Part shown: one piece after another, positions 17,429-18,772 of the stretch
Position numbering within the stretch: position 1 is the first letter of the stretch
How the letters are laid out: the number at the start of each line of letters is the position of its first letter
Assembly: GCA_030648835.1 (NCBI GenBank)
Contig: JAUSGT010000002.1
Location: forward strand, 264,081-309,457
Direction of reading: 5' to 3'
Length of the DNA: 45,377 nt
Source of the DNA: Candidatus Moraniibacteriota bacterium
GTDB lineage: Bacteria; Patescibacteriota; Minisyncoccia; Moranbacterales; UBA1568
Made by a program: the position numbers and the translations under genes
The notes under the pieces: generated by a model
What the model was told of the DNA's origin: nothing
Database searches by the model: none
Seen by the model: only the letters and a program-made list of their open reading frames with translations

Positions 17429-17480
17429 GCCATCTTAGCTTCCGCCCAAGGCGGACCAGCCTTGGGCTGGCAGTTGGTAA
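17429..17480 (+). pseudogene. Truncated tRNA-Thr copy split by a palindrome
   Basis: GCCATCTTAGCT (17429-17440) and CAGTTGGTA (17471-17479) together repeat the first 21 nt of the intact tRNA-Thr located 100 bp downstream. Exactly 30 bp of palindromic sequence lies between them. The copy stops after the D-loop, so it cannot make a tRNA. Confidence 0.8.
17441..17470. repeat. 30-bp palindromic repeat, copy 1
   Basis: Left half TCCGCCCAAGGCGGA is identical to the left half of the copy inside rpsK (26561-26590). The right half CCAGCCTTGGGCTGG differs at a few positions. It sits inside the D-arm of the tRNA-Thr fragment. Confidence 0.85.
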
Positions 17481-17528: not shown

Positions 17529-17601
17529 GCCATCTTAGCTCAGTTGGTAGAGCAACGGTTTTGTAAACCGTGGGTCGTCGGTTCGAGTCCGACAGATGGC
17601 T
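17529..17601 (+). tRNA. tRNA-Thr (anticodon UGU)
   Basis: A complete cloverleaf: acceptor GCCATCT/AGATGGC, D-arm GCTCAGTTGGTAGAGC, anticodon stem ACGGT/ACCGT with loop TTTGTAA (anticodon TGT), T-loop GTTCGAGTC, discriminator T. CCA is not encoded. It has its own promoter. Confidence 0.96.
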
Positions 17602-17606
17602 CAAGT

Positions 17607-17661: not shown

Positions 17662-18270
17662 ATGCCACGTAAAAAAATCACTTCTGGAGAAGAGCGTCTC
17701 GTAAGAGATCTTTATTTGAAAGACTTTACTGGACAGGAAGTTGCTACACAACTCAAGGTTTCTCTGAAACAAGTATACGATTCGTTACGTCGCCAAAATA
17801 TCCCTCGGAAAAGTCTACTTGAGCAAAACAGGTTACGGTTTCAAAAAAAGCCTCTCTCTTTTGTGTTTAGTGAAAAATTGTCATCAAAAGATAGAGAGTT
17901 GCTTGTAGCTGGGCTTATGCTCTATTATGGTGATGGGGCAAAGACAGGGAATACTGTTGACTTTGCCAACTCCGATCCAATGCTTCTTAAATTATTTCTC
18001 AAGTTTCTGAAAAATATTTGCGGTATTGATAATGAGAAGCTGCGGTTTTATCTATACTGCTTCTCTGATCAAAATAGTAATTCACTTATTCGTTATTGGT
18101 GCTCTCATTTGAGCGTTAAGCCGGGGCAATTCACAAAGCCCTATGTCCGCTTGACTCTCAATAAGGGTAAACGAACAATGACAAACGGAGTATTACATAT
18201 TCGTTATAGTGATAAGCGTTTGCTTGAAAAGATATTATTGCTCGGTCGTGAGTGGGCGAGTACTTTGTAA
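17662..18270 (+). CDS. Free-standing LAGLIDADG-type homing endonuclease with N-terminal HTH
   Basis: A 202-residue protein. Residues 1-50 resemble a homeodomain-like helix-turn-helix (GEERLVRDLYLKDFTGQEVA followed by TQLKVSLKQVYDSLRRQ). From about residue 80, RELLVAGLMLYYGDGAK fits the LAGLIDADG helix pattern (GL...GDG, with the acidic residue kept), followed by the alternating basic strands expected of that fold (VRLTLNKGKRTM, VLHIRYSD). Only one such motif is seen, so it would act as a homodimer. The stop codon lies 4 nt before the intron-containing tRNA-Tyr, so it is likely the mobility factor of that intron, encoded outside it. It could also be a domesticated regulator. Confidence 0.7.
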   Translation: MPRKKITSGEERLVRDLYLKDFTGQEVATQLKVSLKQVYDSLRRQNIPRKSLLEQNRLRFQKKPLSFVFSEKLSSKDRELLVAGLMLYYGDGAKTGNTVDFANSDPMLLKLFLKFLKNICGIDNEKLRFYLYCFSDQNSNSLIRYWCSHLSVKPGQFTKPYVRLTLNKGKRTMTNGVLHIRYSDKRLLEKILLLGREWASTL

Positions 18271-18274
18271 ATAT

Positions 18275-18558
18275 GGGTAGGTGGCGGAGTGGTCAATCGC
18301 AGCAGACTGTAAGATATTGCAGCTCTGAAAGGGGACTTTCAGATGAACTTTCTGGGATAACGGTGGAGGCTACGTTCTTATAAAAAAAGAATATGCGAAT
18401 ACCGTGGGAACCTCGATATCGTGTCGGGGAGCGCCGTAGAGACTAGATACCAGAGCACCTAGAACAGGTGAAGATATAGTCCATGCCGAAGAGAAATCCT
18501 CGGGTTATATGAAATCTGTCGCCTTCGGGCTTCGGGGGTTCGAATCCCTCCCTACCCA
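18275..18558 (+). tRNA. tRNA-Tyr (anticodon GUA) with intron
   Basis: Exons 18275-18310 and 18512-18558 join into an 83-nt type II tRNA: acceptor GGGTAGG/CCTACCC, anticodon stem with loop CTGTAAA (anticodon GTA), a long variable arm GCCTTCGGGC, T-loop GTTCGAATC, discriminator A. The intron interrupts the anticodon between its second and third bases, so no functional tRNA forms without splicing. Transcribed with the upstream endonuclease gene. Confidence 0.9.
18311..18511 (+). ncRNA. Group I intron in tRNA-Tyr
   Basis: A 201-nt intron. The 5' exon ends CTGT, which pairs with GCAG at 18319-18322, giving the required U-G wobble at the 5' splice site. The intron ends in G (18511). The core motif AAGATATAGTCC (18471-18482) is the group I S element; its TAGTC pairs with GACTA at 18441-18445 to form P7. 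No reading frame lies inside the intron. It resembles the small self-splicing tRNA introns of cyanobacteria and proteobacteria. Confidence 0.9.
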
Positions 18559-18565
18559 CTAAATC

Positions 18566-18600
18566 AATAAAACGGGTCTTTATGGTCCGTTTTATTTATT
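18566..18600 (+). terminator. Terminator after tRNA-Tyr
   Basis: AATAAAACGG and CCGTTTTATT form a perfect 10-bp stem followed by TATTTTGG. It lies 7 nt after the tRNA. Confidence 0.75.
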
Positions 18601-18716: not shown

Positions 18717-18734
18717 GAATCCCTCCCTACCCAC
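18717..18734 (+). repeat. Repeated 3' end of tRNA-Tyr
   Basis: GAATCCCTCCCTACCCAC is identical over 18 nt to 18542-18559 (T-loop to acceptor end of tRNA-Tyr). Such duplicated tRNA 3' ends are the usual footprint of site-specific integration, or of an insertion that duplicated its target. Confidence 0.8.
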
Positions 18735-18739
18735 ATAAT

Positions 18740-18772
18740 CTAAAACAACTCCCAACATAGGAGTTGTTTTAG
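18740..18772. terminator. Terminator after tRNA-Glu (minus strand)
   Basis: CTAAAACAACTCC and GGAGTTGTTTTAG form a perfect 13-bp stem. Its A/T-rich base lets it act in both directions; it ends the minus-strand tRNA unit. Confidence 0.7.

Follow-up and report, generated by a model that had tools for sequence, protein, structure and literature searches.

A candidate family of free-standing homing endonucleases associated with intron-bearing or recoded tRNA genes in Patescibacteria and Omnitrophota

What is an endonuclease-like gene doing when it lies outside a group I intron and directly in front of the tRNA gene that this intron interrupts? The question is raised by a 45,377-nucleotide stretch of DNA (hereafter "the window") from a Candidatus Moraniibacteriota bacterium (genome ~1.01 Mb, assembly 99.8% complete), in which a 202-aa ORF (17662-18270) sits inside a conserved pair of tRNA genes, with tRNA-Thr(TGT) (17529-17602) directly upstream and a split tRNA-Tyr(GUA) downstream, all on the forward strand. 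An earlier note on this DNA had proposed that the encoded protein, read as an HTH domain plus a LAGLIDADG-like part, either mobilizes the tRNA allele together with its own gene or serves as a maturase.

The split tRNA-Tyr(gta) was called with a 201-nt intron by ARAGORN in intron mode (positions 2114-2398 of locus L001, i.e., ~18275-18559 of the window), and was missed by plain ARAGORN. Its 5' exon (18275-18310) ends in ..CAGACTGT (last bases CTGT, including anticodon bases 34-35), the intron (18311-18511) begins with AAGATATTGCAG, ends in G and contains no ORF, and the 3' exon (18512-18558) starts with AAATCTG. The anticodon is divided between its second and third base (G34-U35 / A36), as the earlier note had read it, and the length of 201 nt, the splice-site pair U18310-G18319, the terminal G18511 and the P7 pairing of GACTA (18441-18445) with TAGTC (18477-18481; read by eye) were all borne out as well. 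The covariance search that the note had suggested gave a full-length match to RF00028 (Intron_gpI) at 18300-18503 (E = 1.3e-6, 32.7 bits, under the 50-bit gathering score), and a related intron in locus L033 reached 56.4 bits. The consensus fold of seven aligned introns comprises P1 (with the splice-site U-G in 7/7), P2, P3, P4-P6, P8 and P9, with 28 pairs changed on both sides. Judged by this covariation and by the model match, the insertion is a group I intron, presumably removed from the tRNA-Tyr precursor by splicing.

The group I introns that occupy this one tRNA-Tyr position beside related genes fall into at least two types, the Moranbacteria/Liptonbacteria type scoring 33-56 bits and the Omnitrophota type 87-107 bits. 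Some tRNA-Tyr introns occur where there is no endonuclease gene (G388, G383, G075), and introns with no gene were seen at loci L050 and L339 as well. Introns were seen in two further tRNA genes. Group I introns of 220-270 nt lie in tRNA-Phe(GAA) (L049, L051, L055, L059, L338; 75-94 bits for the first four), with no endonuclease of the family directly upstream. Introns of ~190-215 nt follow anticodon base 36 of tRNA-Thr(GGT) (L010, L014, L024, L025, L040, L042, L044, L118, L125) and share a group I-like core, ACGGTTAAAG.. ACGACTGACAAGGG.. AAGATACAGTCTA; those of L014, L024, L118 and L125 matched no Rfam intron family at E <= 1 under permissive settings, and the tRNA-Thr(GGT) introns possibly form an unmodelled subgroup.

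The ORF lies outside the intron, as previously described, its stop ending at 18270 and tRNA-Tyr starting 4 nt beyond. For the promoter that the earlier note had assigned to it, the candidate "-10" at 17630-17635 matches the consensus fully (TATAAT) and stands 17 nt from the "-35", but the latter (TTGTAC) has three of six matches and the pair was not among the candidates called by a promoter scan of the region, which leaves this part of the claim unproven. A terminator-like hairpin 3' of tRNA-Tyr (18566-18596, forward strand, a consensus match only) makes it plausible that ORF and tRNA share one transcript. Pieces of its own tRNA genes recur on either side of the Thr-ORF-Tyr unit: upstream, an exact 12-base match to the start of tRNA-Thr (17429-17440), and downstream, 29 nt that are 86% identical to the tRNA-Tyr 3' end and its flank (18717-18745). 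They are perhaps debris from earlier recombination.

The predicted protein consists of an HTH domain (residues 8-44) followed by a confidently modelled alpha/beta domain (pLDDT 95), in which a long helix (75-91) is closed by the family motif LYWGEGxK (LMLYYGDGAK in the window protein) and ends at the D/E of that motif. Across 53 homologs, G92 is invariant, G84, L87, Y88, K94 and an acidic residue at 91 are each conserved in 90% or more, and nearly all have D or E at the catalytic-acid position of the motif. The C-terminal domain was matched at threshold by none of the LAGLIDADG models of Pfam and NCBIfam (one member gave E = 0.19 with LAGLIDADG_3). Searched against 177,635 PDB sequences, a profile built from 40 members for this domain retrieved variants of I-DmoI and nothing else, a weak (E = 0.011) but exclusive match that aligns GLYVAEGDK of I-DmoI with LYWGEGxK. 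I-DmoI is the LAGLIDADG enzyme of an archaeal rRNA intron; it is a single chain with two motifs and no HTH, whereas the present family has one motif per chain. Foldseek searches of PDB with the whole protein and with the C-terminal domain returned nothing at E <= 0.001 (2dch and 7qss were weak homing endonuclease matches), so the fold assignment rests on the motif, the profile and a Foldseek search of BFVD, in which several phage LAGLIDADG endonucleases were among the best matches. A tblastn search against phages gave no match. Against a 68%-identical homolog (L031), dN is 0.222 and dS 1.299, which corresponds to purifying selection on the ORF. We infer that these proteins are LAGLIDADG-like homing endonucleases that would cleave DNA.

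Homologs were detected in 98 of 380 genomes sampled across the phylum and in 29 of 95 relatives, patchily even inside one genus, and also in Omnitrophota (contigs were scanned with a profile built from a 14-row alignment of the family). A tRNA gene follows on the same strand at 121 of the 128 distinct homolog loci, and at 115 it starts no more than 50 nt from the point where the homology ends (median 3 nt). These tRNAs are mainly Tyr (65), Thr(GGT) (18), Thr(TGT) (14), Ile(TAT) (7) and Gly(GCC) (6). The adjoining genes cover at least 11 isoacceptors, most of them intronless; the layout, which the earlier note had called unusual, is not peculiar to this intron, and this outcome agrees with part of what that note had said would refute its reading. 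On the protein tree, tRNA identity changes 20 times (59 in shuffles) and the 64 Tyr rows need only two changes, so the protein clades are tied to one tRNA gene each (Tyr, two Thr, Ile, Gly, Trp and others), the window protein belonging to the tRNA-Tyr clade. Four discordant "Thr(GGT)" rows within the Tyr clade are genes located just 3' of tRNA-Tyr. In L006, L068, L102 and L111, Tyr-clade genes lie on the 3' and not the 5' side of tRNA-Tyr; the D-arms of these tRNA-Tyr genes are altered, and the anticodon stems mostly so. The ORF stop coincides with tRNA bases 8-10 in 24 loci and lies inside the anticodon loop in 19. In the former the stop is the conserved U8A9G10 of the tRNA itself, which 5' processing of the tRNA would remove from the mRNA; at these 24 loci a single transcript may yield either the tRNA or the protein, but not both.

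The gene is free-standing, being located outside any intron and beside its inferred target, and gene-less relatives, including some of the same genus, have empty Thr-Tyr sites in which the two tRNA genes are 24-97 nt apart, which shows the place of insertion. One such spacer, between tRNA-Thr(TGT) and tRNA-Tyr of locus L208 (genome G384), retains 15 exact bases of the gene's 3' end in the right place (0/2000 shuffles were as good), probably a scar of gene loss. Frameshifted or truncated copies (L293, L132, L270) were also seen, as expected for a decaying homing gene.

In gene-less relatives the anticodon stem of tRNA-Tyr nearly always reads ..GACTGTAAATC.., while the stem beside the gene is altered on both strands (e.g., ACGGTCTGTAAAACCGT in L034), and altered stems were found beside the gene in every tRNA type with enough data. 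Non-consensus bases at 30-31 were strongly associated with the gene over Tyr, Thr(TGT), Thr(GGT), Trp and Gly(TCC) (Cochran-Mantel-Haenszel (CMH) odds ratio 17, p ~ 1e-28), and still so when both groups were restricted to homolog loci (odds ratio 9, p = 5e-11), both values being uncorrected for shared ancestry. As background we used an even, phylum-wide sample of gene-less loci, two earlier backgrounds having been dominated by one order or biased towards high scores. Against this sample, C[AT]GA at positions 28-31 of tRNA-Tyr was present in 0/43 intronless loci with the gene vs. 47/86 without it, and the usual stem was present in 2/15 vs. 45/57 for Thr(TGT), 6/17 vs. 40/48 for Thr(GGT) and 0/5 vs. 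17/19 for Trp. In 13 of the 43 gene-bearing intronless tRNA-Tyr genes GA was kept at 30-31, and the deviation was confined to 28-29. The T stem did not differ with the gene in any tRNA tested and the acceptor stem showed no consistent shift: the effect is specific to the anticodon stem, and it agrees over four tRNA types and separate protein clades. Coding overlap was considered as a cause of the stem change and rejected, since many loci whose ORF stops before the tRNA are also altered. At locus L166 (genome G293), two adjacent tRNA-Tyr genes differ in their stems, GA in one and GT in the other.

Within the Tyr clade, 24 loci have an intron and 40 do not. The two groups differ in their stems: C[AT]GA is kept in 23/24 intron-bearing loci (L095, with an intron and a non-C[AT]GA stem, is the exception) vs. 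0/40 intronless ones, and in Omnitrophota only, in 19/19 vs. 0/4. In the order sample, gene and intron co-occur (4/8 vs. 2/78, p = 0.0005). The intron state changes only about three times on the tree, an independent-pairs test on it had too few pairs to decide, and the mutual exclusivity of intron and recoded stem therefore rests on few independent events. An intact SWGACTGTAAATCWS site occurs nowhere in the host genome, so that statistically, by the stem survey and by this search, alleles bearing the homing endonuclease gene (HEG) lack the inferred target.

We consider it probable, from these sequence patterns, that the ORF is a free-standing HEG, that members of its different clades cut the anticodon stem-loop of specific tRNA genes, and that the linked tRNA gene is made immune by an intron or a recoded stem. 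LAGLIDADG proteins with a single motif act as dimers on near-palindromes, and the anticodon stem-loop DNA is such a near-palindrome, centered on the intron insertion site. The Tyr-clade protein, likely a homodimer, would recognize the pseudo-palindromic stem-loop DNA CAGACTGTAAATCTG of tRNA-Tyr, and the cut would fall within the loop of HEG-less alleles. In the window, the corresponding candidate target, CAGACTGT/AAATCTG on the forward strand, is suggested by the stem statistics and is interrupted by the intron (left half 18303-18310, right half 18512-18518). Repair off the HEG-bearing locus would copy HEG and tRNA together, with the conserved neighboring tRNA genes as homology arms. The linked tRNA-Tyr would be immune through the intron at the cut site, its sequence being restored at the RNA level by splicing, while in most relatives immunity would come instead from a recoded anticodon stem that can still pair. 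Mobilization of the tRNA allele with its gene, the first of the two roles proposed by the earlier note, would on this evidence be the best reading.

The other role, in which the gene is retained because its product aids splicing of the neighboring tRNA intron, has some appeal, as LAGLIDADG proteins can be maturases, the window gene is joined to an intron-bearing tRNA, and gene and intron co-occur in the order sample. Yet most homologs adjoin intronless tRNAs (40/64 Tyr-clade loci and nearly all Ile, Gly, Met and Trp loci), introns such as those of L050 and L339 persist with no gene, the recoded anticodon stems are left unexplained and almost all members retain a D or E as the motif's catalytic acid; the maturase role is not supported, and we hold it to be quite improbable. 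The recoded stems could be accommodated if the protein acted as a toxin on RNA, cutting the anticodon stem-loop of the tRNA itself with the linked tRNA as a resistant antidote, since such stems would shield RNA as well as DNA. But intron-bearing loci would give a mature tRNA with an ordinary stem (23/24), which an RNase would cut, so that protection by the intron would act on the gene and not on the RNA; DNA is also the substrate suggested by the HTH domain and the I-DmoI-like motif, and an RNA-level toxin with its rescue seems unlikely.

The HTH domain, together with a fixed, co-oriented position upstream of the tRNA, would also suit a transcriptional regulator of tRNA operons, a WhiA-like combination of HTH and LAGLIDADG without nuclease activity. 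Against this stand the ~90% conservation of the motif acid and lysine, the patchy presence of the gene (98/380 phylum genomes, about one in three relatives), the empty sites of close relatives and broken copies such as L293, and such a regulator gives no reason for the stems to be recoded, all of which makes it very improbable. Finally, tRNA genes are common integration sites, and the ORF might be a chance neighbor at a generic insertion hot spot, independent of the tRNA sequence; this we find scarcely credible, given that protein clades match isoacceptors, that only a few nt separate the junction from the tRNA 5' end and that anticodon stems are altered only where the gene sits.

Components of the homing reading are already known, as endonucleases of the anticodon region, free-standing ones that spread tRNA genes, and collaboration of an endonuclease with an ORF-less intron are all covered in a review (PMC3984707). 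I-Ssp6803I, the endonuclease of a tRNA-fMet intron (Bonocora & Shub, 2001, cited in PMC3984707), likewise has its site in the anticodon region of a tRNA gene with a group I intron insertion, but it is intron-encoded, whereas the present genes lie upstream of the tRNA, encode an N-terminal HTH and mostly have no intron partner. In collaborative homing, a free-standing endonuclease and an ORF-less intron share one site (Zeng et al., 2009; Bonocora & Shub, 2009; reviewed in PMC3984707), much as here an ORF-less group I intron occupies the inferred site of the adjacent endonuclease gene; the known cases concern phage protein genes, whereas ours are chromosomal bacterial tRNA genes, the clades are numerous and parallel, and immunity takes two forms. 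SegB of phage T4 (Brok-Volchanskaya et al., 2008, cited in PMC3984707; PMC13096335) is free-standing and spreads a tRNA gene region, but it is phage-borne and located in the tRNA region, and the excerpts of these two sources describe for it neither a clade-per-tRNA pattern nor recoded stems. Cleave-and-Rescue (ClvR) drives (PMC7951863) also combine a nuclease with a resistant, recoded copy of its essential target; they are synthetic, whereas the elements considered here would have arisen in nature and would insert by homing into the very target that they cut. Among the open-access papers retrieved, none gives an account of tRNA-specific endonuclease clades with recoded target tRNAs or of the family in Patescibacteria, and the family in Patescibacteria and Omnitrophota is apparently undescribed so far.

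With somewhat less assurance than for the mechanism, we lean towards viewing these genes as a large, undescribed selfish family, in which each clade would pair an endonuclease directed against one essential tRNA gene with a resistant tRNA, a natural counterpart of cleave-and-rescue and a series of HEG-intron pairings. If true, this would account for an unannotated ORF that turns up repeatedly next to tRNA genes in Patescibacteria and Omnitrophota, and a single mechanism would connect selfish DNA with tRNA introns and with variation of the anticodon stem. The family would provide many parallel natural cases in which to study how endonucleases encoded outside introns come to be paired with introns that have no ORF, and it suggests natural selfish elements equipped with a recoded version of the essential gene that they target. 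Being conserved on either side, tRNA genes could allow such genes to move between distant bacteria.
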